DNA from: Luteimonas mephitis DSM 12574 | GTDB lineage: Bacteria > Pseudomonadota > Gammaproteobacteria > Xanthomonadales > Xanthomonadaceae | Direction: 5' to 3' | Length of the DNA: 64,000 nt | Assembly: GCF_000422305.1 (NCBI RefSeq) | Contig: NZ_AULN01000014.1 | Coordinates: forward strand, 124,001 to 188,000 | Translations under genes and position numbers: made by a program | Shown: piece after piece, positions 22,710 through 45,086 of the stretch | Layout: every line of letters begins with the position of its first letter | Position numbering within the stretch: the stretch's first letter is position 1 | The notes under the pieces: generated by a model | Told to the model about the DNA's origin: nothing | Database searches by the model: none | The model's input: only the letters and a program-made list of their open reading frames with translations

Positions 22710-23189
22710 CTATTCTCGTTCGCTCAACTCAGCCTTCATTACAGCGATCTCTTTCTCCTGCGCGGCGATGATCTCATCGCAAAGCCGAAGCAAATCGGGG
22801 TCGCGAAGCGATGTCTGTTCGCACATGAGAATCGCGCCGGCATGGTGCGGGATCATCGATTTCAGGAACTGCTCGTCAGAAATGGCCGTTTGATTGCGGA
22901 TGAAGATCCAAAACACCGCCAGCGTGACCGCAGCCACGGCGATCAGGACGGCATTGAGCTTCTTGTTGGGATACATGCGTCCCATCAGGAGCAGTTCGAA
23001 GATGGCCATCGGAGCGGTCATCAACCCGGCCATGTAGGCCTGGTTGAAATTGGGAAGAACGTTCTCCCAAGCGTTGACCATCGCGTACATGAACGCGTAC
23101 ATCGCGAGGAACGAGAGGACGATCATTGCCAGAAAGCGCCAGTAGGGGGCCGTGTGCTTCCCCTGATGGTCCGACATTTGATGGGCCAT
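22710..23189 (-). CDS. DUF305 family membrane protein
   Basis: A 159-aa protein. Three hydrophobic segments lie at about 18-38, 50-68 and 80-97 (FLAMIVLSFLAMYAFMYAMV; LMTAPMAIFELLLM; AVLIAVAAVTLAVFWIFI). A C-terminal DUF305 domain follows with FLKSMIPHHAGAILMCEQ and LCDEIIAAQEKEIAVMK. DUF305 proteins are four-helix ferritin-like modules with conserved HH and Met residues, and commonly accompany copper-resistance genes. Start 23189 has GGAG six bases upstream. It is divergent from copL, so it probably shares metal-responsive control. Confidence 0.87.
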   Translation of the reverse strand: MAHQMSDHQGKHTAPYWRFLAMIVLSFLAMYAFMYAMVNAWENVLPNFNQAYMAGLMTAPMAIFELLLMGRMYPNKKLNAVLIAVAAVTLAVFWIFIRNQTAISDEQFLKSMIPHHAGAILMCEQTSLRDPDLLRLCDEIIAAQEKEIAVMKAELSERE

Positions 23190-23244
23190 GGCTGGCTCCA
23201 TAGGTGGGACAGGCGAAGCCTGCACGGTGGTTGGCGGGACGGCC

Positions 23245-23277
23245 GTGAAGATGGGCGTCAACGGCGCACATCTTCAC
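23245..23277. promoter_or_regulatory. Inverted repeat in the DUF305/copL divergent promoter
   Basis: GTGAAGATG (23245-23253) is an exact inverted copy of CATCTTCAC (23269-23277), separated by 15 bases and centred between the two divergent starts. A dyad of this size and place is a good candidate operator for a copper-responsive regulator. No regulator gene for it is obvious nearby. Confidence 0.45.
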
Positions 23278-23325
23278 GCATGGTTTACCCAACACCCCCC
23301 AATTCGGGCTAAAGTGCCTGCCGCC

Positions 23326-23772
23326 ATGCCCGCCGTACTCCCAATCCTGCTGCGTGTTCTGCTCAGCCTGACCCTCGTCCTGAACGGCGTGGGCTATGCG
23401 GCTGCGTCAACGACCATGGAGCTGCATGGATTGCATGCGGATTCCGAAGCGGGTCGAACGGCGAGTGCCAGCCTCGACGATACGTCGATGCCTTGCCACA
23501 CCGAAGCCGACATGATCCAGATGGATATGGCGCATCACGGCCATGGGTCGTGTCCGGCTTCGGATATGCCGCCGCTGGCGAATGAGTCAGGCGGTTCTGA
23601 CTGCTGCGACTCCGGCCAGTGTGTCTGCGCCTGCGCGCAGCACGTGGTGTTCGCGCTGGTCATGCCTGCCGTGCCAAACGCCGAGGTCGTGCACGCGACC
23701 AGCGTACGCGTGCTCTCGTTGGGTCACGCCCAACCGGCTTTGCCGCACCTCATCCGACCTCCGATTGCCTGA
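23326..23772 (+). CDS. copL: CopL-family Cys/His-rich leader protein
   Basis: A 148-aa protein with an N-terminal signal-like helix (LPILLRVLLSLTLVLNGVGY) and potential metal ligands throughout: MPCHTEADMIQMDMAHHGHG, DCCDSGQCVCACAQH. It ends LIRPPIA. The gene stands 98 bases before copA, as copL does in Xanthomonas, where it is needed for copper induction of copAB. The CVCAC cluster and the Arg-Pro-Pro tail just before the stop resemble the CruR/DUF2946 copper-sensing upstream ORFs. Its role may therefore be performed by the nascent chain. Start 23326 is the first Met before the signal helix. Confidence 0.8.
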   Translation: MPAVLPILLRVLLSLTLVLNGVGYAAASTTMELHGLHADSEAGRTASASLDDTSMPCHTEADMIQMDMAHHGHGSCPASDMPPLANESGGSDCCDSGQCVCACAQHVVFALVMPAVPNAEVVHATSVRVLSLGHAQPALPHLIRPPIA

Positions 23773-23870: not shown

Positions 23871-25733
23871 ATGTCTTCCTCGCATTCCACACGCCCAGCG
23901 CCCGAGCTGGCGTCGCGCCGCCGTTTCATCCAGGGTCTCGCCGCGGGCGGCGCCGTAGCGGGTTTGGGCCTATGGCCCAACCACAGTTGGGCCATAGGCC
24001 AACCCGCACTCAACGGGCCCGGCAATCCCAATGTGCTCACGGGCACCCGCTTTGATCTGAACATCGGTGAGACGCCGATGAACTTCACCGGGCTCACCCG
24101 CCCGGCGATTACGGTCAACGGCACCGTTCCGGCACCGATTCTGCGCTGGAAGGAAGGCACGACCGTCGACCTGTTCGTCAGCAACCAACTGCCGCGCAAC
24201 TCGATCCACGGTCATTCCACCTCGATCCACTGGCACGGCATTCTCCTGCCTCCCAACATGGACGGCGTGCCTGGCCTGAGCTTCGACGGCATTGATCGCG
24301 GCGAGACTTACCACTATCGCTTCGATGTCCGGCAGGGCGGCACCTACTGGTACCACAGCCATTCCGCGTTCCAGGAGCAGGCCGGCCTTTATGGCGCCCT
24401 GGTCATCGACCCGCTGGCACCCGAGCCGTTCCGTTATGACCGCGACTACGTGGTCCTGCTGACCGACTGGACCGACCTGGACCCGACGGCATTGTTCGCC
24501 CGGCTGAAGAAGATGTCGGACTACGACAACTTCGCCAAGCGGACCGTCGGTGACTTCTTCAATGATGTGCAGGACCAGGGCCTGGCGGCCACGATCCAGA
24601 ACCGCAAGGCGTGGGGCGAGATGCGGATGACGCCAACCGACCTGTCGGACGTCAATGGCAACACCTACACCTACCTGATGAATGGCACGACGTCGCTGGG
24701 CAACTGGACCGGCCTGTTCCGCTCCGGCGAGAAGGTGCGATTGCGCTTCATCAACGGCTCGTCGATGACCCACTTCGACGTGCGCATCCCGGGGCTGAAG
24801 ATGACGGTGGTCGCCGCCGATGGGCAGTACGTGCATCCGGTGACCGTCGACGAATTCCGCATCGCCACCGCCGAGACGTTCGACGTGATCGTCGAGCCCA
24901 CGGGCCAGGATGCGTTCACCATCTTCGCCCAGGACATGGGCCGCACCGGCTACGTCAGCGGCACCTTGGCGGCGCGCGAAGGCCTGCGAGCACCGGTGCC
25001 GTCGGTTGATCCGAAACCGATCCTGACAATGGACGACATGGGTCATGGTGGCATGGGCGGCGGCGGTCACGATATGTCGTCGATGTCCAGCAACGCCATG
25101 GCCGGCGGTTCAATGGCAGGGATGGACCACAGCGGCCACGACATGTCGTCGATGGCGGGTGGCGCAATGGCCGGCGGAAGCATGGCGGGCATGGATCACG
25201 GTGCAGGCGGCATGCAACAGCACCCCGCCAGCGAGAACAATCCGTTGGTCGACATGCAGACCATGGCGCCGACCGCGAGGCTCGATGACCCCGGCATTGG
25301 CCTGCGCGAAAATGGCCGTCGGGTACTGACCTATGCCGATCTCAAGAGCACCTTCTCCGACCCTGACGGACGCGAACCGGGCCGTACCATCGAGCTCCAC
25401 CTGACCGGGCACATGGAGCGTTTTGCCTGGTCGTTCGACGGCATGAAGTTCTCCGACGCCGAGCCATTGCGCCTCAAGTACGGCGAGCGCATGCGAATCG
25501 TGCTGGTCAACGACACCATGATGACCCACCCGATCCACCTGCATGGCATGTGGAGCGATCTGGAGGATGAGCACGGCAACTTCCAGGTGCGCAAGCACAC
25601 CATCGACATGCCGCCCGGCAGCAAGCGCAGCTACCGCGTGCGCGCCGACGCGCTTGGCCGGTGGGCCTACCACTGTCACCTGCTGTACCACATGGAAGCG
25701 GGCATGTTCCGCGAAGTGCGGGTGGAGGAGTGA
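23871..25733 (+). CDS. copA: CopA, periplasmic copper-resistance multicopper oxidase
   Basis: A 620-aa enzyme. It has a Tat signal (SRRRFIQGLAAGGAVAGLGL) and three cupredoxin domains. Copper ligands are seen in SIHWHGI near residue 117, YWYHSHSA near 160, HPIHLHGMW near 560 and the type 1 site HCHLLYHMEAGM at the end. A Met/His/Gly-rich insert (about 388-455) has repeated MAGMDHSGH elements. It oxidises Cu(I) to the less toxic Cu(II) and sequesters copper. Start 23871 follows CTGGAG. copB begins five bases after the stop. Codons 32-44 contain a 15-bp hairpin. Confidence 0.96.
   Translation: MSSSHSTRPAPELASRRRFIQGLAAGGAVAGLGLWPNHSWAIGQPALNGPGNPNVLTGTRFDLNIGETPMNFTGLTRPAITVNGTVPAPILRWKEGTTVDLFVSNQLPRNSIHGHSTSIHWHGILLPPNMDGVPGLSFDGIDRGETYHYRFDVRQGGTYWYHSHSAFQEQAGLYGALVIDPLAPEPFRYDRDYVVLLTDWTDLDPTALFARLKKMSDYDNFAKRTVGDFFNDVQDQGLAATIQNRKAWGEMRMTPTDLSDVNGNTYTYLMNGTTSLGNWTGLFRSGEKVRLRFINGSSMTHFDVRIPGLKMTVVAADGQYVHPVTVDEFRIATAETFDVIVEPTGQDAFTIFAQDMGRTGYVSGTLAAREGLRAPVPSVDPKPILTMDDMGHGGMGGGGHDMSSMSSNAMAGGSMAGMDHSGHDMSSMAGGAMAGGSMAGMDHGAGGMQQHPASENNPLVDMQTMAPTARLDDPGIGLRENGRRVLTYADLKSTFSDPDGREPGRTIELHLTGHMERFAWSFDGMKFSDAEPLRLKYGERMRIVLVNDTMMTHPIHLHGMWSDLEDEHGNFQVRKHTIDMPPGSKRSYRVRADALGRWAYHCHLLYHMEAGMFREVRVEE
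23967..24000 (+). repeat. 15-bp perfect hairpin within the copA signal region
   Basis: GGCCTATGGCCCAAC (23967-23981) and GTTGGGCCATAGGCC (23986-24000) are exact complements with loop CACA. The element lies inside copA codons 33-44, encoding the end of the Tat signal and the start of the mature protein. A stem this long inside a coding region is unusual. Confidence 0.8.
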
Positions 25734-35452: not shown

Positions 35453-36178
35453 TCAGGACTGCGAACCTTTTCCGACCTGGAAGGTGCCGACGAATCGATA
35501 AATGGCCGCAGGGTGGGTGAGGCGAACAAGACTTGCGACGCGGCCACGTGACCAGGTGCGCCGACTCAAGATGAGCAATGGATCGCCTGCTTCAATGTGC
35601 AATGTCTTGGCAATCTTGGCATTGGCTACTTCGGCCTCGATCTCGTGTTCGGTTCGCTCAAGCGGGGCAACGCGCGTCAAGTACTCGTGCGGGATCTCGA
35701 CCATGAAATCAATATCCAGGTAGCCGGGTGCACATGCGGGATTGACGAAGCGCTCCTCCAGTTGAAGGGGCGTGTTGTCGGTGAAATGCAGTAAGCGCGA
35801 ATGAAACAGACTGCTACCGATCGGCAGATCGAATCTTCGTGCTATGGGCGCACGTGCCACAACCAACTCTCGAGTGAGGACATTGACTACATGGGTTTGC
35901 CCACGTGCGCGGATCTCGTCCCGGATGCTACGAACCTCAAACATCGGCGAGTCGACTTTCGGCAACGCGACAAACGACCCGACGCCTTGGACGCGAGTCA
36001 CCACTCCAGAATCGGTGAGCTCGCGCAATGCTCGGTTCACTGTCATGCGAGAAACATCGAATTGAGCCACCAACTCGTTCTCGCTCGGAATCTGGCTGTG
36101 AGGCGGCCACTTCCCGCTGGTGATCTGCTGAAGAACGTAATGCTTCAATTTGGCGTACTGGGGCTTTGGCTTCTCCAT
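35453..36178 (-). CDS. hutC: HutC, histidine-utilisation repressor
   Basis: A 241-aa GntR/HutC-type regulator. The winged helix is at about 8-75 ([47 protein letters not shown]). A UTRA effector domain follows from about 95 ([20 protein letters not shown]). HutC represses hut genes and is released by urocanate. The next gene, hutU, starts ten bases after its stop, so the repressor heads its own operon. Two TGTATAGACA-like sites upstream are candidate operators. Confidence 0.93.
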
Positions 36179-36191
36179 CGCCAGAGCATGA

Positions 36192-36208
36192 CATGTCTAT
36201 ACAACATG
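36192..36208. promoter_or_regulatory. Candidate HutC operator 1
   Basis: CATGTCTATACAACATG lies 14 bases upstream of the hutC start and has CATGT/ACATG ends around a TGTATAGACA core on the minus strand. HutC sites are known to resemble TGTATAxACA. This site would mediate autoregulation. Confidence 0.55.
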
Positions 36209-36296
36209 CGGAAGACGCTCGATATCCCGAATTTCCGCCGCTGCAGTCATTTGCCTTCAATCGTTTGACATCCGGTTCGGAGGCGTGGTATCTGGT

Positions 36297-36306
36297 GGTA
36301 TAGACA
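36297..36306. promoter_or_regulatory. Candidate HutC operator 2
   Basis: GGTATAGACA repeats nine bases of the operator-1 core (GTATAGACA), 25 bases before the start of the CruR-like ORF. It could give cooperative HutC binding or bring the TonB-receptor operon under HutC. Confidence 0.4.
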
Positions 36307-36330
36307 ACCTGAGAAGCGTCAGCGCATCCC

Positions 36331-36735
36331 ATGTCCAGGCCCTCGCCCATGCTCCGCTACCTGCTGATTCTGGCTTTTTGCCTGAATGGCAGCGCGACGC
36401 TATGGCAGGCCACCGCCATGGCAGCGAGCACCGTTCAGCCTGTCCAGAACGACGGTCACGGCAGCCATGAGTCGGACAGTGGCGCATCACGAGTCGTTGG
36501 ATCGACCCCACACTGTCCAGACGCGGAAACGCCAGGGCAGGGCAGCGGCGAGCACGGCGGTTGTGATTGTGCTGGCGCAGGATGTGACTGCGCTTGCAGC
36601 CTCTTCAAAGTTGCGGCTGCTCACAAGGTGCCGCCCGCTGGACCCGTCTGGCTCACCGCCGCACCCGTATTGCCCGAACCGAAAACAGTCGGTAAAAGCT
36701 CTCTTTCTTCCGTTTTTCGACCTCCCATCGGTTGA
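36331..36735 (+). CDS. CruR/CopL-like Cys-rich upstream ORF (DUF2946-type)
   Basis: A 134-aa secreted-type protein. The hydrophobic N-terminal segment (MLRYLLILAFCLNGSATLW) is followed by HGSHES, a CP pair and a dense cluster GGCDCAGAGCDCACSL. It ends VFRPPIG. Upstream ORFs of the DUF2946/CruR type in Bordetella sense copper through nascent-chain Cys and stall at a C-terminal RAPP motif, controlling a downstream TonB receptor and PepSY gene. The same gene order occurs here (TonB receptor 117 bases downstream, then two PepSY genes). The regulatory role is inferred. Confidence 0.75.
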   Translation: MSRPSPMLRYLLILAFCLNGSATLWQATAMAASTVQPVQNDGHGSHESDSGASRVVGSTPHCPDAETPGQGSGEHGGCDCAGAGCDCACSLFKVAAAHKVPPAGPVWLTAAPVLPEPKTVGKSSLSSVFRPPIG

Positions 36736-36782
36736 CTTGTCCGGCTGCCTGCATGGTGGCCTCCATTGCCGTGAGCTTCGTA

Positions 36783-36794
36783 TACGCATGCGTA
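36783..36794 (+). promoter_or_regulatory. Palindrome between CruR-like ORF and TonB receptor
   Basis: TACGCATGCGTA is a perfect 12-bp palindrome 47 bases after the leader-ORF stop and 58 bases before the receptor start. It could be an operator or an RNA hairpin in an attenuation region. Confidence 0.35.
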
Positions 36795-36852
36795 CTGCGT
36801 TGCTCGCGTCTTCGCCGACAAGTTCAAATGACAACCGCTTGAGGAGTTCTCC

Positions 36853-39570
36853 ATGTTCTGTAAACGCAACCAACTCACGTTGGCGATCGGCGCGTTGCTG
36901 TCTGCCGGTCTCGTTACGAATGCTTTCGCGCAGTCTTCAGATGAAGCAGCGCCGGCCAACGCAACCACCCTCGACGCCGTCACCGTAACCGGCAGCCATA
37001 TCAGGGGCGCAGCCATCTCGGGCGTTGGCCCTGTGTCCGTCATCGATGAAGAAATGATCGAGCGATCGGGTGCGACCTCGGTCGAAACATTGCTGCAACG
37101 GCTGCCGGCATCCGCCGGATTTGCAGGCAACCAGACCAATGCGTACTGGGCGGACAACGGCTATGGCACCACCCAGGTCAACCTGCGAGGCCTGGGCATC
37201 AGCCGTACGTTGGTCCTCCTCAACGGTCGTCGCATCGTCAACGGCGGCACCGGCGCAAACAGCTCGGTCGACCTCAACATCATTCCGGTCGCCCTGATCT
37301 CGCGCATCGAAGTGCTCAAGGACGGCGCCTCCGCCATCTATGGTGCAGACGCGGTGGCGGGTGTGGTGAACATCATCACCAAGAAGAAGTTCGACGGTGC
37401 CGAAGCCTCGGTGCGTTACGGCCAAACCTTCCAGCAGGACGGTGAGGATGGGGCCGTCGACGTGGCGTGGGGTGTGTCGAACGACCGCGGGTCGTTGATG
37501 ACCGCCATCAACTACTCGCAGGGCGGCACAGTCAACATGGCCGATCGCGCCGCGTGTGGCCTGGGCGAAGTGGACGGCAAGCTTCAGTGCGTTGGTAGCT
37601 CGAGCACGATCGGCGGCCGCGCCCTGCTGCCTGATGGAAGTCGCATCAACTTCAACCAGGAGCTTGGCGGAGACGGCGATTTCTACGAGCCGTACTCACC
37701 CGAGAAGCACAACCAGAATTCGTACTCAATGCTCAATGCGGTCAATCCGATCAAACGACTCAGCTTCAGCGCATTCGGCAACTTCTCGCTGACCGAGAAC
37801 GTCACCGCGTTCACGGAGTTGATGTACACCAACCGACAGTCGGACCAGCTGGCGACGCCCGGCACATTGGGCATCTATCGACCGATCAACATCGCGGCCA
37901 ACCAGCCGACCAATCCCACCGGCCAGGACCTGCTGCTCGAGCGCAGGAGCCTCAAGGAGGCCGGCCCGCGCGAGTTCTACCAGGACGTCGACACGTTCCG
38001 CGTGGTGCTGGGCCTGGAAGGCATGTTCGGCGACTACTGGAACTGGTCGGCCGCGATGAACTGGGGCCGCAACACCGGACAGGATGGTTCGACCAAGGTC
38101 GCCAACCTCGACCGCGTCGACGATACGCTCAACACGGCGATCTGCAGCAATGCCGCGGGCGCCGCGATCCCGTGCGCTGACTACCTGGGCTACGGCGACG
38201 TGACCCAGGAAGTCCTCGACTACATCCTGTACACGACCCGCGACGTCGGCGGGAACGACCAGAAGAGCTTTACCGCCAACCTGAGCGGCCAGTTGTTCGA
38301 ACTGCCAGCAGGATGGGTGGGCGTTGCGACAGGTATCGAAGTGCGCAAGGAGCGTGGTTGGCGTGATCCGGATCCGCTCACGGTGCTCGGGATCGCCAAC
38401 ACCAACCAGCAAGATTCGATCGCAGGCGAGTACACGGCGAAGGAGGTCTTCGTCGAGGTCGCCGTCCCATTGCTACAGGACACGTTCCTCGCCGAATCGC
38501 TGGCGCTGAATGCAGCGGTGCGCTATTCCGACTACGATCTGTTCGGCGGCGACACGAACTACAAGGTGGGCCTGGACTGGCAGGTGGTGCCATCGCTGAA
38601 GCTGCGTGCGAACTACTCCACTGCGTTCCGTATCCCGAACGTGCCGGAACTGTTCGGCGGCGTTTCCGAGGGCGGCCTGACCACGACGGACCCGTGCAGC
38701 GGGTGGTCCAGTTTGCCGAGTTCTTCGGTCGTCTATCAGAACTGCCAGGCGTCTGGCGTACCTGCCGGCTATTCCCAGCTTGGGAAGGCCATCCAGACAA
38801 CGGTGGGCGGAAACCCCAACCTTGAACCGGAGGACGCCGAAACCCTGACAGTGGGTGCGGTCTGGACGCCGGTTTTTGCCGAAGGCCTCACGCTGACCCT
38901 CGACTACTTCAACATCAAGATCGACAACGCCATCCAGCGCATCGACGGATCGACCAAGCTGGCGGTCTGCTACAACACGCCGGGGCTGGCCCACCAGTTC
39001 TGCTCGCCGTCGAACTTCACCCGCAATCCGCTGACCGGGGACATCAACTACCTGTCCGCGCAACCGGTCAATGCAGCCAGTGAGCGGGTCTCCGGCATCG
39101 ACCTGGGTGCGTTGTACCAGTTCAACATCGGCGAGATCGATGCCACGTTCAACTGGGATGTCTCCTACCTCAAGAACTACGATGTGATGCCGTTCCCGCA
39201 GGCGGAAGAAATCCACTATGCCGGCAACATCACCGGCGGCCGCGGCAGCTTTACACACTGGCGTTCGTTCGGCGCACTGACCCTGGTGCAAGGCCCGTGG
39301 TCGGGGTCGTACAGCATCCAGTACATCGGCTCGGCAGAGGACATCAATGCCGCAAAGGGTGATATCGGCGACCACGTTTCAAGCCTGACCTACCACAACG
39401 TCCAGGCGAAATATGCCGTCAGCGAGGCAATGGACGTCACGTTCGGAATCGACAACCTCTGGGACAAGGAAGCGCCTTTCATCCAGAGCTACACCGATGC
39501 CAACACCGACACCATGACCTACGACCTGCTTGGCCGTCGCTGGAACGCGAAGCTGACCTACCGCTGGTAA
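36853..39570 (+). CDS. TonB-dependent outer-membrane receptor
   Basis: A 905-aa protein. Signal peptide 1-26 (ending NAFAQ), a TonB box-like DAVTVTGS near residue 41, a plug domain (about 50-170, with VNLRGLGISRTLVLLNGRR and DGASAIYGADAVAGVVNII), then a large barrel ending with aromatic Trp (LTYRW). Several barrel-loop cysteines are present (AACGL, LQCVG, DPCSGW, QNCQ). The substrate is unknown. Position after a CruR-like leader and before PepSY reductase genes suggests a metal or metallophore, for instance copper or iron. GAGGAG precedes the start. Confidence 0.93.
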   Translation: MFCKRNQLTLAIGALLSAGLVTNAFAQSSDEAAPANATTLDAVTVTGSHIRGAAISGVGPVSVIDEEMIERSGATSVETLLQRLPASAGFAGNQTNAYWADNGYGTTQVNLRGLGISRTLVLLNGRRIVNGGTGANSSVDLNIIPVALISRIEVLKDGASAIYGADAVAGVVNIITKKKFDGAEASVRYGQTFQQDGEDGAVDVAWGVSNDRGSLMTAINYSQGGTVNMADRAACGLGEVDGKLQCVGSSSTIGGRALLPDGSRINFNQELGGDGDFYEPYSPEKHNQNSYSMLNAVNPIKRLSFSAFGNFSLTENVTAFTELMYTNRQSDQLATPGTLGIYRPINIAANQPTNPTGQDLLLERRSLKEAGPREFYQDVDTFRVVLGLEGMFGDYWNWSAAMNWGRNTGQDGSTKVANLDRVDDTLNTAICSNAAGAAIPCADYLGYGDVTQEVLDYILYTTRDVGGNDQKSFTANLSGQLFELPAGWVGVATGIEVRKERGWRDPDPLTVLGIANTNQQDSIAGEYTAKEVFVEVAVPLLQDTFLAESLALNAAVRYSDYDLFGGDTNYKVGLDWQVVPSLKLRANYSTAFRIPNVPELFGGVSEGGLTTTDPCSGWSSLPSSSVVYQNCQASGVPAGYSQLGKAIQTTVGGNPNLEPEDAETLTVGAVWTPVFAEGLTLTLDYFNIKIDNAIQRIDGSTKLAVCYNTPGLAHQFCSPSNFTRNPLTGDINYLSAQPVNAASERVSGIDLGALYQFNIGEIDATFNWDVSYLKNYDVMPFPQAEEIHYAGNITGGRGSFTHWRSFGALTLVQGPWSGSYSIQYIGSAEDINAAKGDIGDHVSSLTYHNVQAKYAVSEAMDVTFGIDNLWDKEAPFIQSYTDANTDTMTYDLLGRRWNAKLTYRW

Positions 39571-39577
39571 CCGGCTC

Positions 39578-39609
39578 GTTCCTCCCCGGCACGCGTGCCG
39601 GGGAGGAAC
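39578..39609 (+). terminator. Strong palindrome after the TonB receptor
   Basis: GTTCCTCCCCGGCAC (39578-39592) and GTGCCGGGGAGGAAC (39595-39609) form a 15-bp perfect stem, followed by AGGTTTCCCTTTT. It probably terminates most transcripts after the receptor and lets a fraction continue into the PepSY genes. Confidence 0.75.
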
Positions 39610-39646
39610 AGGTTTCCCTTTTGGCCTGTATCGGCAGGAACTTCCT

Positions 39647-40339
39647 ATGAAACCCGCATTCTGGGCACGCCGTGCCCATAAATGGATTGCCTTGTTCATC
39701 GGCGCACAGGCCTTGCTGTGGACGGTGAGCGGGCTCTACATGACCGTCATGTCGATCGACTACATCCATGGCGACCACCTGGCGCATTCGAAGGCGCCCG
39801 CGCTTGCACGAGACGCCGCACTGATCGATCCGGGCGCGATCAGCAAGCGCTATCCGGGAATGGATGGTTTTCGCCTCAGGCAGTTGCTGGGGCGCGAAGT
39901 CTACGAAGTACGCCAAAGTGCGAGCATCGCACTGGTCGATGCTCGCACCGGTGCCACGATCGGACCAATCGACAAGCCCGCGGCGCGACAGTTGGCCATG
40001 GCCACTTATCAGGGCGAAGCAAAGCTGCAGTCCCTGCAGTTGATAGACAAGGCGCCCAGGGAGGTGGCCAGTCGCGAAGTTCCCATGTGGCAGGCCACGT
40101 TCGGCGACCGCATCAACACCGCGCTGTACTTCTCGCCGCAGACGGGCGAACTATTGGCCACGCGGCATGATTTCTGGCGCTTGTTCGATTTCCTCTGGAT
40201 GCTCCACATCATGGATTACGAGGATAGGACGAACGTCCACAATCCATTGTTCCGGGTTGTGGCATCGGTGGGCTTCCTGTTCGCGCTCAGCGGCGTGTGG
40301 CTGCTGTTCTACAGTTTCCGCAAGAGGGCCGCAGCATGA
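39647..40339 (+). CDS. PepSY-domain inner-membrane protein
   Basis: A 230-aa protein. An N-terminal RRAHKWIALFIGAQALLWTV helix, a periplasmic PepSY-like domain (EVYEVRQSASIALVDARTGA), a paired-His segment LWMLHIMDYEDR and a final helix VASVGFLFALSGVWLLFYSF fit the PepSY-TM fold. Related proteins reduce ferric siderophores or metal complexes in the periplasm using haem bound by the helices' His residues. It overlaps the next gene by four bases (ATGA), so the pair is translationally coupled. Confidence 0.85.
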   Translation: MKPAFWARRAHKWIALFIGAQALLWTVSGLYMTVMSIDYIHGDHLAHSKAPALARDAALIDPGAISKRYPGMDGFRLRQLLGREVYEVRQSASIALVDARTGATIGPIDKPAARQLAMATYQGEAKLQSLQLIDKAPREVASREVPMWQATFGDRINTALYFSPQTGELLATRHDFWRLFDFLWMLHIMDYEDRTNVHNPLFRVVASVGFLFALSGVWLLFYSFRKRAAA

Positions 40340-42171
40340 CGCCCTGGATCCGGAAGCTGCACAAGTGGATCGGCCTGGCCGTTGCATTGCAATTCACGAT
40401 CTGGCTGGGCAGCGGGCTGACCATGAGCCTTCTCGACAAGGATGCCGTCGAGAACGTGCATCACCGCGCGCCGGCGGGCGACAAGCCCAACTGGCCCGGG
40501 AGTGCCGTTGCCCCCCAGGCTGTCCTTGCCGCCGCCACGCGTCCTGTGCAGATGATCGAGACCCATTGGCTGGGTAACCGGCCGGTGTTCCGGCTCAGCG
40601 ACAAGGATGGAACCTGGCTGGCAAGCGTCGACGACGGGCAGCCGGTGCCGGTGACCGCTGAAGCGGTCGCGGCGATCGCGGCGGCCGATTACGTGGGCGA
40701 GGGGCGGGCCTCACCGCCGGAGCTCATGAACGAGGTGATCTGGGAAGCACGTGGCCATGCCGCACCCATCTGGCGCGTGGCGTTCGCCGACGACGACGGC
40801 ACGACGCTATACCTGTCCGGGCAGGATGGTCGCATCCTCGAACGGCGCAGCACCATGTGGCGGATCTTCGATTTCGCCATGATGTTGCACTTCATGGATT
40901 ACACCCGGCAGCAGGATTTCAACAATCCGCTGATCGTGATGGCCGGCGCAGGCGGGTTGTGGATCGCCTTGTCGGGCATCTGGCTGCTGGTGACCAGCTT
41001 CCGCTTGGGCGAGTTCGTTCCATCGCGCTGGCGACCGCGCCATGAGTTGACCGTGTTTGCGGCCGGTGGCGCCAGGCTGCGCTCGGTGGAGTCGCATTCG
41101 GGCGACACGGTCTATCTTGCGCTGGGCAGGAATGGCCTGCAGTTGCCGTCCAATTGCGGCGGGGGCCAGAGTTGCGGCCTGTGTGAGGTGCGCGTGCGCG
41201 GCGATGCGCCTGCGCCGACCAGCGCCGACCGCGAGCACTTGGACAAGAGCCGCCTGGGGTTGGGTTACCGCTTGGCGTGCAACGTGCCGGTGCGCTCCGA
41301 TATCCAGGTCGAAGTCGCGGGCGGCGCTGCGCTGTGGACCGAACGCACGGCCACCGTCGCCAGCGTGGTGCCGGTGACGCCGTTCCTGCGCGAGATCGTG
41401 CTTGAACCGGATGCCGCGTTGGCGCCATCGGAGTTCCAGCCGGGCGCCTATCTCCAGGTGCACGTACCGGGGTATTCACTGCGGCGGCACGATCTCGATC
41501 ATCCTGAGCAACATCGCCTGGACTGGGCTGCGCTCGACTTGCCGCCGACGTTGACATCCAGGGAGCCAGTGCGCAGGTCGTACTCGCTTTCCTTGCCGGT
41601 GGAGAAGGCTAACGGAAAGGTGACCTTGCTTGCGCGCTTCAGCCCGGGAGGGCGAGGGAGGAAGCGCCAACCCGCGGGCAAGGGTTCGACCTACCTGTAT
41701 TCGCTCAAGCCGGGGGATCGCGTGCATTTCAGCGGGCCGTTCGGCGACTTCGCGCTCAAGCCAGGGGCAAAGGAGAAGGTGTTCATCGGTGGTGGCGCCG
41801 GTATGGCCCCGCTGCGCGCAATGATCCATTCTCTGCTCGACCACGGTGCAAGTGAACGCATTCACTTCTGGTATGGCGCCAGGAATCTGCGCGAAGCGCC
41901 CTATGCCGGAGAGATGGAAAAGTTGGCACACACCCATCCGAACTTCAGCTGGCACCTGGTGCTGTCGGATGCCGCAGAGCATGGCGCGGGATTGATCCAG
42001 GGCTTGGTGCACGAGGCCACACACGAAGGACTGCTGCAGGGCCATCCCGATCTCCATGCGTGCGAGTTCTATCTTTGCGGGCCGCCAGCGATGTTGTCGG
42101 CAACAAGGAGCCTGCTGGACCAGCTCAAGGTCAGGCAGGAGCAGGTCGCTTTCGACGATTTCAAAATCTAG
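40336..42171 (+). CDS. PepSY membrane protein fused to NqrF-like reductase
   Basis: A 611-aa fusion. Residues 1-230 repeat the PepSY-TM layout of the preceding protein (RKLHKWIGLAVALQFTIWLG, the FAMMLHFMDYTRQQ His segment, GLWIALSGIWLLVTSF). About 245-335 is a plant-type [2Fe-2S] domain with LPSNCGGGQSCGLCEVRV and a distal RLACNV cysteine. The rest is a ferredoxin-NADP+-reductase unit: RRSYSLSLP for FAD, KVFIGGGAGMAPLRAMI for NAD(P), YLCGPPAML and FDDF at the end, as in NqrF. It should carry electrons from NADH across the membrane for periplasmic metal reduction. The substrate is unknown. Confidence 0.88.
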   Translation: MTPWIRKLHKWIGLAVALQFTIWLGSGLTMSLLDKDAVENVHHRAPAGDKPNWPGSAVAPQAVLAAATRPVQMIETHWLGNRPVFRLSDKDGTWLASVDDGQPVPVTAEAVAAIAAADYVGEGRASPPELMNEVIWEARGHAAPIWRVAFADDDGTTLYLSGQDGRILERRSTMWRIFDFAMMLHFMDYTRQQDFNNPLIVMAGAGGLWIALSGIWLLVTSFRLGEFVPSRWRPRHELTVFAAGGARLRSVESHSGDTVYLALGRNGLQLPSNCGGGQSCGLCEVRVRGDAPAPTSADREHLDKSRLGLGYRLACNVPVRSDIQVEVAGGAALWTERTATVASVVPVTPFLREIVLEPDAALAPSEFQPGAYLQVHVPGYSLRRHDLDHPEQHRLDWAALDLPPTLTSREPVRRSYSLSLPVEKANGKVTLLARFSPGGRGRKRQPAGKGSTYLYSLKPGDRVHFSGPFGDFALKPGAKEKVFIGGGAGMAPLRAMIHSLLDHGASERIHFWYGARNLREAPYAGEMEKLAHTHPNFSWHLVLSDAAEHGAGLIQGLVHEATHEGLLQGHPDLHACEFYLCGPPAMLSATRSLLDQLKVRQEQVAFDDFKI

Positions 42172-42440: not shown

Positions 42441-43019
42441 TCATGAGGTAGCGATGCTGAGGTGTTCGTACAAGATGGTCGAACCCACTGCAATAAGAAT
42501 GATGCCGCCCACGATTTCGGCGCGTTTGCCGATGACCGCTCCCAGGACTCGGCCAGCCATGATGCCTAGCGTCACCATGGCGAAGGTACACAGGCCGATC
42601 ACCGCGGCAACGACAACGATGTTGACATCGACAAACGCCAAACCCACGCCAACGGCCATCGCGTCAATGCTGGTAGCCAGTCCCGCGACGGCCACCAAGA
42701 GCAGGCTTCCACTTCCGTTGATGCTGCCCGCAGTGGTCTCCTTGTCCGGCACCAGCGCCTTGTAGATCATGTGCACCCCCAAGGCTGCAAGCAAGCCGAA
42801 TGCGATCCAGTGATCCCATGTTTCGATGATGCGCGAGGCAGCAGAACCCAGCAGCCAGCCAATGACCGGCGTAATGCCTTCCACGACGCCGAAGATAAAA
42901 CCTACGCGGAGCGCATCCTTCAGGCGTGGTTTGACCATGCCGGCGCCCCGTCCCAAGGCGGCGGCGAATGCATCGGTGGACATGGCCAAGCCGAGCAGGA
43001 GAATCGAAATGGGATTCAT
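42441..43019 (-). CDS. mntP: MntP manganese efflux pump
   Basis: A 192-aa membrane protein with six helices in two inverted repeats. Each half carries the conserved Asp motif: [19 protein letters not shown] and [20 protein letters not shown]. MntP exports Mn(II). Start 43019 (MNPISILLL) is typical. The leader upstream has the features of a yybP-ykoY manganese riboswitch. It stands alone on the minus strand between the reductase operon and the czc-like operon. Confidence 0.94.
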
Positions 43020-43083
43020 GGGTTGCCAACGGTCGGGACTTGCGGACGAACGAATGCGATCCGCGCGCCCGACCGGAGCTACG

Positions 43084-43196
43084 CGCATCGCTCGTTGGTC
43101 TCGCCAACCGTCAGGTTGCGTTCGCCACGACCCATTCGGGCCGAGTGTGTTGACGGACGCGCCTCCAGAATGGAGGCCGGCTACTCCCCAAGGAGA
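43084..43196 (-). ncRNA. yybP-ykoY manganese riboswitch upstream of mntP
   Basis: In mRNA sense the leader contains CTTGGGGAGTAGCCGGCCTC (rc of 43173-43192), then GTCAACACACTCGG, then GTTGGCGAGACCAAC as a closed hairpin (43094-43108), about 65 bases before the ATG. GGGGAGTAGC and the CGAGACC loop are the two conserved Mn-binding elements of this riboswitch class, which commonly precedes mntP. The full fold was not computed. Confidence 0.75.
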
Positions 43197-43361
43197 AGAT
43201 CTGCACACCAGAACCTGCGCGCAGAGACTGGATGATAGCAGCGCACGGGTGGCAACAGCCTCCCGTGACCGGCTCGCGATCGGGGGTTCAGGGAGCGCCC
43301 CTCACGCGACTGGATCCGTGAAATTGTGTAACCCCGGCGCTCGCAGGTATCCTGCTCGGCC

Positions 43362-43748
43362 ATGACCCGCTTGCGTCCACATCGCTGGCAGCCGCTCCTG
43401 CGCGTTCTTGTGCTGGGACTGTTTGCCCTCGGCCTGGTGCTGCAACCGGTGTTGGCGAACGTCGCCGAGTATCACGAGTTGGCGCATGATCCGTCCGGCT
43501 CGCACGCCCATGACTTGCGTGCGGTTGACGGCGCGGAAGGGATCCCGGGCGACGAGCAAAGCGAAGACGCCTGGACGTTGCACTTGCTCCTGCACTTCGC
43601 TCACTGCTGCGGTGCGACTGCGGCCTTGCTGCAAGCGTTCAAGCCGCTCCCCGTGGCACGGCCAGACGGCCGTCTGGCCATCACGAAAACACCGATGCCG
43701 CCGCAGGTGCGGCTGACCTCACCGTTCAGGCCTCCGATTTTCGCGTGA
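43362..43748 (+). CDS. Secreted leader protein of the czc-like operon, RPPI tail
   Basis: A 128-aa protein. A hydrophobic N-terminal helix (LLRVLVLGLFALGLVLQPVL) is followed by several His (EYHELAHDPSGSHAHD) and the cluster LHFAHCCGATAA. It ends SPFRPPIFA. It resembles the small secreted proteins that precede czcC (CzcI-like) and also shares the Arg-Pro-Pro-Ile tail with copL and the ORF at 36331. czcC starts 57 bases downstream. It may be a periplasmic metal binder, a nascent-peptide sensor, or both. Confidence 0.7.
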   Translation: MTRLRPHRWQPLLRVLVLGLFALGLVLQPVLANVAEYHELAHDPSGSHAHDLRAVDGAEGIPGDEQSEDAWTLHLLLHFAHCCGATAALLQAFKPLPVARPDGRLAITKTPMPPQVRLTSPFRPPIFA

Positions 43749-43805: not shown

Positions 43806-45082
43806 ATGCGTTTGCGACCCGCGGCCCTGGCCGTGCTCGTCGTCGTGTGTGTCGTGGTCTTTCCCACGCACGCCGCCGACCCCCTGACCCTGGATGACGC
43901 CTTCAAGCGCGTCGCCAATACCCATCCCAACCTGCGCCTGTTCGGCACGCGTCGCGACGTGCTGGAGGCCGAACTGGAGCGAGCATCGTTGCGCCCGGCA
44001 TTGGTTGCCGGTGCCAGCATCGAGAACGCATTCGGCACCGGCGAAGCCAGCGGCCTGGACAGCGCCGAAATCACCCTGAGCTTGGCCTCGGTGCTGGAGC
44101 GTGGTGGCAAGCTCGATGCGCGTCGGACCTTGGCGCAAAGCCGAATCGACGCGCTGGCGGTAGAACGCGAGGCGCAACGGCTGGATCTGCTGGCCGAGGT
44201 GGCGCGTCGGTATCTGTCGATCATCGCGGCGCAACACCAAAGCGCAATCGCGCAGCTCGACATCGGGCAACGCCAGAGCACCGTTGCCGAAGCCCGCAAG
44301 CGACTGCAGGCCGGCGCCTCGCCCGAATCCGTAGTGCTGACCGCACAGGCGGCGCTGGCTCGGGGCGAACTCGATCTCGCCCGTGCACAGCAGCGCCAGT
44401 CTGCGGCGCGCCAATACCTGGCCGCGCTGTGGGGCGAACGTGCCCCCTCATTTGAGGTGGCCGGCGGCGATCCGCTGGTGCTGCCCGAGGTAGCCGATTT
44501 CGCGGTGCTCGCCGATTGGCTGGCACGGACACCGGAGCTGGCGCAGTTTGTCGGCGAAGCCCGCATCCGTGAGGCGCGCCTGCAGCTCGCCCGCAGCGAA
44601 GCCAGCCCGGATCTGGACTGGCAAGTGGGCGTGCGCCGGTTCCAGGGCAGCGACGACTTCGGCCTGATTGGCAGCGTCTCGATCCCCTTGGGTAGCGCGA
44701 GCCGCGCCCAGCCTGGCATTCGCGCCGCCCAGGCCGAACTGGCGGGGCTGGAGATCGAACGCGAAGCCAAGGGCTTGTCGTTGTATTCGACGTTGGCCGA
44801 GGCCCACGGCCGTTACCGCGTCGCCGCAGTCGAGGTCGAGCGCCTGCAGGACGACGTGCTGCCCCGGCTGGGCAAGGCCGAAGCCGCCACACGCGCTGCA
44901 TATCGCGCCGGCGCAGCCAGTTATCTGGAATGGGCGACGCTGCAGGCCGAGCGCACCGCCGCGCGCAAACAACAACTGGAGGCCGCGCTTGATGCCCAGC
45001 GTGCCTTGATCGAAATCCAGCGACTCACCGGCCAGGCTTTCCTCGCCGGTTCGGCGCCGCAGACCCAACAAGGAGTTACCCC

Positions 45083-45086
<4 letters not shown>
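43806..45086 (+). CDS. czcC: CzcC-like outer-membrane channel (TolC family)
   Basis: A 426-aa protein with a signal peptide (ALAVLVVVCVVVFPTHAAD) and two outer-membrane-efflux repeats of long helices (LDDAFKRVANTHPNLRLFGT, EITLSLASVLERGGKLDARR; second half VGVRRFQGSDDFGLIGSVSI, RAAYRAGAASYLEWATLQAE). It forms the exit duct of a heavy-metal RND pump. The last codons overlap czcB by four bases (GTGA/ATG type), so translation is coupled. Confidence 0.92.

Follow-up and report, generated by a model that had tools for sequence, protein, structure and literature searches.

The window analysed here is a stretch of 64,000 nucleotides (nt) from Luteimonas mephitis DSM 12574 (contig NZ_AULN01000014.1, positions 124,001 to 188,000), and our subject is a small open reading frame (ORF) that stands directly ahead of a gene for a TonB-dependent receptor and is probably a metal-sensing switch of the receptor operon (Table 1). 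The ORF encodes 134 residues with a hydrophobic N-terminus, a Cys cluster, CDCAGAGCDCAC, at residues 78-89 and the end VFRPPIG, and 117 nt separate its stop codon from the receptor start (about 84-137 nt in relatives). Two PepSY genes follow the receptor. An earlier note, made from the sequence alone, had described this arrangement as a CruR-type copper-sensing leader with a signal-like start, a CxCxC pattern and a C-terminal RPPI motif, heading TonB and PepSY genes and joined to a membrane reductase with NADH-oxidising domains. The ORF analysis and domain searches bear out this anatomy, including Fer2, FAD_binding_6 and NAD_binding_1 domains above their cut-offs in the NqrF-like reductase, in which PepSY_TM itself falls under its cut-off (24.8 versus 28.8 bits). 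The leader is divergent to a hut operon, in which hutU, hutH and hutG also score above their cut-offs.

Table 1. Features of the leader-receptor locus and of the parallel loci in the window
Feature	Position	Strand	Basis
hutC, histidine utilisation repressor	35453..36178	-	TIGR02018 285.7 bits, cut-off 220
Inverted copy TGTCTATAC of the HutC-type box, ahead of hutC	36194..36202	-	Sequence comparison
Probable leader promoter, TTGACA (36265-36270), 17 nt, GTATCT (36288-36293)	36265..36293	+	By eye; similar TTGAC-type elements in relatives
Predicted HutC-type operator GTATAGACA at leader promoter	36298..36306	+	Box conservation
CopL-family leader ORF, 134 residues	36331..36735	+	NF033807 71 bits, cut-off 40, profile positions 2-129 of 129
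Sensor cluster CDCAGAGCDCAC, residues 78-89	36562..36597	+	CxC...CxCxC
R-P-P-I-G-stop, CGA CCT CCC ATC GGT TGA	36718..36735	+	Putative arrest motif; also 5' strand of predicted RNA lock
Predicted RNA lock: leader CCUCC with GGAG before the receptor; stop-codon region forms the next stem	36719..36850	+	Probability of Shine-Dalgarno paired to tail 1.00
Receptor Shine-Dalgarno GGAG	36843..36846	+	Folding
TonB-dependent receptor, 905 residues	36853..39570	+	Plug 79.1 bits, barrel 132.9 bits
PepSY_TM membrane protein	39647..40339	+	PepSY_TM 33.5 bits, cut-off 28.8
PepSY-Fer2-FAD-NAD membrane reductase, NqrF-like	40336..42171	+	Fer2, FAD_binding_6, NAD_binding_1 above cut-off
copL1, parallel leader before copA, tail LIRPPIA	23188..23772	+	CopL match from 23344; true start uncertain
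copA multicopper oxidase behind copL1	23871..25733	+	TIGR01480 1042 bits; Shine-Dalgarno to tail pairing 1.00
CzcI-like leader before czcCBA, tail PFRPPIFA	43362..43748	+	HCC 39-41 residues ahead of Arg
czcC-type outer membrane factor, first gene behind CzcI-like leader	43806..45086	+	Domain and family profiles

Profile searches against the DUF2946 and CopL families, which the earlier note had proposed as a check, assign the leader to the latter. It is a full-length member of CopL_fam, whereas its score for DUF2946 (PF11162), the family of CruR, is 14 bits against a gathering cut-off of 23.7, and membership of that family was therefore dropped; the source genome (3.4 Mb, with Lysobacter species as nearest named records by reductase and leader) has no DUF2946 match at E<=0.001. 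A CXXC is absent, the Cys residues lying at positions 17 (in the signal region), 62, 78, 80, 85, 87 and 89, and an arrest motif of the RAPP/RGPP type was ruled out since the tail reads RPPI. The CruR-like overall design thus stands, although the family, the Cys pattern, the motif and the spacing between sensor and motif (40 instead of 45 residues) differ. The leader agrees with CutF-like proteins in three criteria used in PMC9973294, namely PP within the last 15 residues, fewer than 150 residues and a same-strand neighbour within 1000 nt. Its N-terminus, judged by eye and not by a signal-peptide program, is a hydrophobic stretch with AMA.

The association of leader and receptor was followed through the reductase, which in 247 genomes of the family matched 40 genomes at 41 places; eight of the 41 match only from about residue 228-255 onward, without the PepSY part, and were set aside. 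The 49 loci examined (L037-L085) consist of 40 of these places, that of the window itself being excluded, and nine loci from named genomes. The receptor N-terminus is intact in 31 of them, and an RPPI leader, ending in FRPPI and a few residues, lies upstream in all 31. Because the leader finders themselves required R.PP or RPPI tails, the informative point is that none of the 31 receptor loci failed. Four duplicates were removed and the window added, giving a receptor-type set of 28. Two of the 49 loci (L039, L050) have a receptor match without its 5' part and no leader was found there, the receptor of L050 being aligned from residue 228 onward only, and 16 have no receptor match. No leader was found in L074-L076, which have a reductase 44-45% identical, a PepSY gene and no receptor match; a metal-ATPase-like ORF, named by eye, lies upstream in L075 and L076, and L074 ends at a contig edge. 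An initial contig scan with the leader as query found no relative.

A second collection comprises 115 CopL loci (L001-L003, L007-L036, L116 and L138, with 80 more taken roughly by score among the matches listed), 114 of which gave an ORF with an R.PP or RPPI tail, none being found in L032; the copA-type rows L177, L182, L186 and L212 are without a CopA match. Relatedness inflates the counts, although similar sequences were removed for the co-variation test described below. In a leader tree built from few columns, with a rough bootstrap, a single branch separates all receptor-type leaders from the copA-type (94/92; 95% of 200 bootstrap trees).

The distance between sensor and tail is nearly constant in these leaders. 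From the last Cys of the cluster to the Arg of RPPI there are 40 residues in 27 of the 28 receptor-type leaders (42 in L077), and among 113 copA-type leaders 40 residues in 68 and 39 in three, the other 42 being without CxCxC. The linker between Cys and Arg is ungapped, with a mean identity between leaders of only 25%. In the CzcI-like leaders a Cys pair precedes the Arg or Lys by 39-41 residues (25 unique sequences scored). For CruR, with its spacing of 45, changes of 1-2 residues are reported to leave regulation intact and five added residues to reduce it strongly (PMC9426467).

The tail is also one strand of a predicted RNA lock on the Shine-Dalgarno (SD) sequence of the receptor. Energies were obtained by RNA folding of short segments, and pairing was scored for 28 receptor-type leaders, 95 of the 96 unique copA-type leaders (one without SD dropped), 24 of 30 DUF2946 leaders, 25 unique of 30 CzcI-like leaders and, as control, 22 of 28 junctions from receptor stop to PepSY start (six without SD dropped). 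In the window's three leaders, the SD is paired to the tail with a probability of 1.00, 1.00 and 0.97. The mean probability is 0.68 in the receptor-type set (n=28) and 0.58 in the copA-type set (n=95); shuffling the interior, with tail and SD left intact, reduces it to 0.30 (p=3e-7) and 0.38 (p=2e-8), respectively. At the control junction in the same operons, pairing exceeds 0.5 in none of 22 cases, and p=0.35.

Co-variation between the two strands was measured without alignment, by comparing true pairs of a 30-nt tail and SD region with swapped pairs, the lowest attainable value being p=0.0002. This floor was reached in all three leader groups: matched pairs gave -23.4 kcal and swapped pairs -18.2 kcal in the receptor-type leaders (n=20 after removal of similar sequences), -20.1 and -18.7 kcal in the copA-type (n=69), and -20.8 and -16.6 kcal in the CzcI-like leaders (n=17). 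Six other 30-nt leader windows in the receptor set gave no co-variation signal. When the tail was masked as far as the stop codon, in imitation of an arrested ribosome, SD and start codon became cheaper to open: the mean cost fell from 9.6 to 6.5 kcal in the receptor-type and from 8.2 to 5.8 kcal in the copA-type leaders, and the cost for the receptor of the window from 9.5 to 4.3 kcal. The drop is at least 2 kcal in 18 of 28 and 44 of 95 leaders, respectively; two interior masks of equal length gave such a drop in 0 and 0 receptor-type and in 6 and 0 copA-type leaders.

The codons of the tail are as constrained as its residues. Among the 28 receptor-type leaders, 27 use CGA for the Arg and 26 use CCT for the first Pro, and among 96 copA-type leaders 85 and 77 do so, against 7.1% for CGA and 7.6% for CCT in eight genes of the window; of 24 DUF2946 leaders from the family genomes, seven have CGA and three have CCT for the first Pro. 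This odd choice of rare codons is explained if the arrest codons double as the anti-SD. The copA-type leader of L138, with CGC CCC CCC and an SD unpaired with the RPP codons, is an exception to the codon rule. Slow decoding of the rare CGA CCT was considered and is not needed, being at most an extra effect, because 18 of 25 CzcI-like leaders have AAG, AGG, CGT, CGG or CGC before CCT or CCC and still form the lock. The peptide is selected as well. Among 27 loci collected at the class level, two lie in the same family and the other 25 come from other families, all under the CopL cut-off; since 12 of these 25 (two of them alike) end in RPPI with free codon choice, the peptide itself appears to be maintained, and the tail is under double selection, as peptide and as RNA.

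Two other explanations were considered. In plain translational coupling any ribosome finishing the leader would open the lock, RPPI causing no real arrest and the tail being held for the RNA. The strong nucleotide-level conservation of CGACCTCC in the tail would fit such coupling, as would the CzcI-like leaders, in which the 18 of 25 with a Lys or a non-CGA Arg codon all retain SD-tail pairing (18/18); the RPPI tails with free codons outside the family and a 40-residue ruler at 25% identity, however, call for a reason at the peptide level, and we consider coupling unlikely. The leader could instead be an ordinary exported metal-binding protein that acts in trans and whose position is incidental, in keeping with its export-signal-like start, its Cys cluster and the NCBIfam text, in which CopL_fam is called a metal-binding regulatory protein. 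Its place directly ahead of the receptor in 31 of 31 judgeable loci, the fixed ruler and the codon and RNA constraint on the tail make a role of this kind highly improbable.

We favour, with reasonable though not high confidence, the reading that the leader acts in cis as a nascent chain that senses metal and that a ribosome arrested on RPPI opens the SD lock. During export of the leader, the ribosome would pause on the R-P-P-I codons as the Cys cluster, 40 residues upstream, exits the tunnel. With the tail free of ribosomes, CCUCC and the stop-codon region would pair with the SD region of the receptor and block the SD, and an arrested ribosome covering the tail strand would free it. At low metal arrest would prevail and the operon would be on, and metal bound to the Cys cluster would release the arrest, if the sign is that of CruR, whose arrest serves a receptor operon switched off by copper (PMC9426467). 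HutC would gate transcription separately, by binding a box close to where the leader transcript begins.

Several observations weigh against this proposal. Pairing of SD and tail is 0.5 or less in 7 of 28 receptor-type and 35 of 95 copA-type leaders, and SD-RPP pairing is 0.15 or less in the 13 copA-type leaders whose first Pro is encoded by CCA. For the 12-nt core alone, matched and swapped pairs differ by only 0.5-0.6 and 0.3 kcal (p=0.003-0.02); as this difference is small and CCUCC is nearly invariant, the co-variation lies mostly in the stop-codon stem. One of the six control windows in the copA set reached p=0.0465, and the alignment-free test takes the place of a column-by-column covariation count because MAFFT misaligned the 3' strands. 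Even with the tail masked, a residual opening cost of about 4-7 kcal remains. DUF2946 leaders fold onto the next SD too (above 0.5 in 21 of 24), with co-variation that is not significant (p=0.14). At the peptide level, eight of the 25 loci outside the family end in RPPR, KPPI or KPPR and five have no usable tail, and the proline tail of CutF alone gave no arrest in a LepB fusion (PMC9973294).

The design of the operon, which resembles cruR-bfrG-bp2921, brings up attenuation of the CruR type, in which a stalled ribosome blocks Rho, metal relieves the arrest and Rho terminates before the receptor, the RNA fold being secondary. The long gap between leader and receptor would suit this, a scan of 36150-37000 found no terminator-like site, and Rho has been demonstrated for CruR (PMC9426467). 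However, Rho attenuation predicts neither RPP codons that match the receptor SD, nor co-variation of tail and SD, nor an unpaired next junction, and it appears improbable here; a lock like that of SecM or CutF is favoured, Rho attenuation being the less supported. The DUF2946 leaders of the family (L086-L115) have a tail that is mostly RGPP near the end and a distance from stop to SD of 34-63 nt; CruR itself is described as Rho-controlled.

The design is not confined to the receptor operon described in the earlier note: the same tail, ruler and SD lock are common to the receptor leader, to copL1 ahead of copA and to the CzcI-like leader ahead of czcCBA. The source genome has four CopL_fam members, all ending in RPPI and one residue, while the CzcI-like leader of the window ends in RPPI and two residues. 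Relatives of the latter occur in 123 of 247 family genomes, and 7 of the 25 scored have an FKPPI instead of an FRPPI end. Two further CopL leaders of the source genome, C3 and C7 (L002, L003), stand before copA-type oxidases and have the Arg codons CGG and AGA; the lock is poor in C3 (probability 0.02) and full in C7 (1.00).

A CopL leader ahead of copA would be expected to respond with the opposite sign, so that the sign would lie in the sensor. The two sensors differ at position -39, where Leu or Phe occurs in 95% of 20 dereplicated receptor-type leaders versus Gln or His in 84% of 76 copA-type leaders; the sign of the response, if truly different, should reside in the sensor. A wider proposal, which we put forward tentatively, is a family-wide module before both importers and exporters. 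In it, an exported metal-binding leader would end in R-P-P-I or K-P-P-I, with about 40 residues acting as a rigid ruler in the tunnel; the arrest codons would themselves be the anti-SD, and the sensor alone would set the sign. At the receptor operon a HutC gate would be stacked on this module, giving a histidine AND metal gate for copper-histidine uptake.

The evidence for HutC, which the earlier note had overlooked, comes from the region between hutC and the leader. Of the 28 receptor-type leaders, 19 carry the box TGT[AC]TATAC, which lies 386-447 nt ahead of the RPPI codons and just downstream of a TTGAC-type promoter element recognised by eye (a sigma-70 consensus scan of 36150-37000 gave no site at the leader promoter). 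The same box occurs in none of 113 copA-type leaders with at least 500 nt available before the RPPI codons and in none of 224 control windows. The gene hutC is in the same place in 14 of 27 other receptor-type loci, and 15 of the 19 boxed leaders adjoin a divergent hutC; the four boxed loci without a neighbouring hutC (L069-L072) carry a perfect TGTATATACA. A pair of HutC-type boxes between hutC and leader, one per transcript, is exact in 13 of 28 loci including the window; L063 and L065 match exactly in the leader box but not in the hutC box. For Pseudomonas, the HutC consensus is given as TGTA-N2-TACA (PMC12977541). The predicted box suggests a combined histidine and metal control of the operon.

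The box and the neighbouring hutC, together with a HutC-regulated TonB receptor predicted in Caulobacterales and Sphingomonadales (PMC5343134, whose available text names none for the present group), lead us to guess a histidine-metal chelate as substrate. Plausibly, the receptor would take up a metal chelated by histidine, with copper the likeliest, for reduction by the PepSY reductase; the operon is perhaps one for copper-histidine uptake, and CrtA of Bordetella is reported to import chelated copper (PMC12914433). Two points weigh against the proposal. The box is missing in 9 of 28 receptor-type leaders, and copper as the substrate rests on the leader and its neighbourhood, since the OprC model does not appear in the best 25 of the receptor's 30 NCBIfam hits. 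Against solved proteins BtuB is best, matched across receptor residues 38-196 only. The HutC gate could instead mark a histidine receptor, with a leader that reports zinc, nickel or iron. The HutC box, the divergent hut operon and the receptor predicted in the two orders above would agree with such an operon too; copper is indicated by the CopL_fam membership and by the copA and metal-efflux genes nearby, and we regard the histidine or non-copper operon as less likely.

The SecM lock acts on secA. As in SecM and the RAPP/RGPP arrest peptides, a C-terminal arrest in a small exported protein would here control the next gene, the differences being that metal takes the place of secretion status and that RPPI is not named among the arrest peptides in the available text of PMC12992588, in which CruR, with RAPP, is reported to arrest in vitro. 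CruR of Bordetella pertussis likewise heads a TonB receptor and a PepSY gene and has a Cys sensor at fixed spacing to a C-terminal PP motif (PMC9426467). It differs in RAPP, CXXC, a 45-residue spacing, frequent codons and Rho, against RPPI, no CXXC, 40 residues and rare codons in the present leader, and the Fer2-FAD-NAD reductase of the Luteimonas operon is unreported in the available description of the CruR operon.

CutF of Rhodobacter capsulatus resembles the leader in its exported Cys sensor, its C-terminal proline motif and its stem-loop over the next SD (PMC9973294). Copper is reported to prolong a pause-like process there, which opens the stem-loop (PMC9973294); under this rule metal turns the next gene on, and by analogy with CruR the sign in the present leader would be opposite. 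CutF ends in PEPEGPPPRL (PMC8456105) and the present leader in RPPIG, and the anti-SD of CutF (CTTC) lies in a stem-loop between the genes, whereas here the anti-SD is the codons of the arrest motif themselves. Also close is the CopL leader of copLAB in Xanthomonas and Stenotrophomonas, which shares family, tail, ruler, codons and lock anatomy with the present leader; the latter, in contrast, heads a TonB/PepSY-reductase operon and has CxC..CxCxC, Leu or Phe at -39 and a HutC-type promoter box.

The general idea for CopL is already in print: PMC9973294 lists CopL as CutF-like, suggests isofunction, notes TonB receptors as frequent neighbours and states that, in Xanthomonas, copper regulation of the gene behind copL needs copL in cis. 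In many xanthomonad papers copL serves as a copper-resistance marker, its mode of action being left open in the text available. A role of the tail codons as anti-SD, a ruler of exactly 40 residues and the receptor-type branch were not found in the accessible portions of the literature on such leaders. The anatomy offers a concrete, testable mechanism in which one design would serve copper defence, metal efflux and uptake, and it raises the question how opposite responses could arise from a single kind of tail and ruler. The HutC box ties histidine catabolism to a metal-type TonB system and gives a hint of what the orphan receptor may transport.

A search of 36200-37000 against Rfam gave zero matches at E<=1. 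A forward scan of the source genome for RPPI-x-stop gave six matches, of which three end CopL leaders and three end no ORF of at least 20 residues; the C7 leader is missed because the pattern is without TAG stops. The minus strand at 42441-43208, in the interval from the receptor operon to the CzcI-like leader, encodes a putative manganese efflux protein (Mntp, 169.9 bits).

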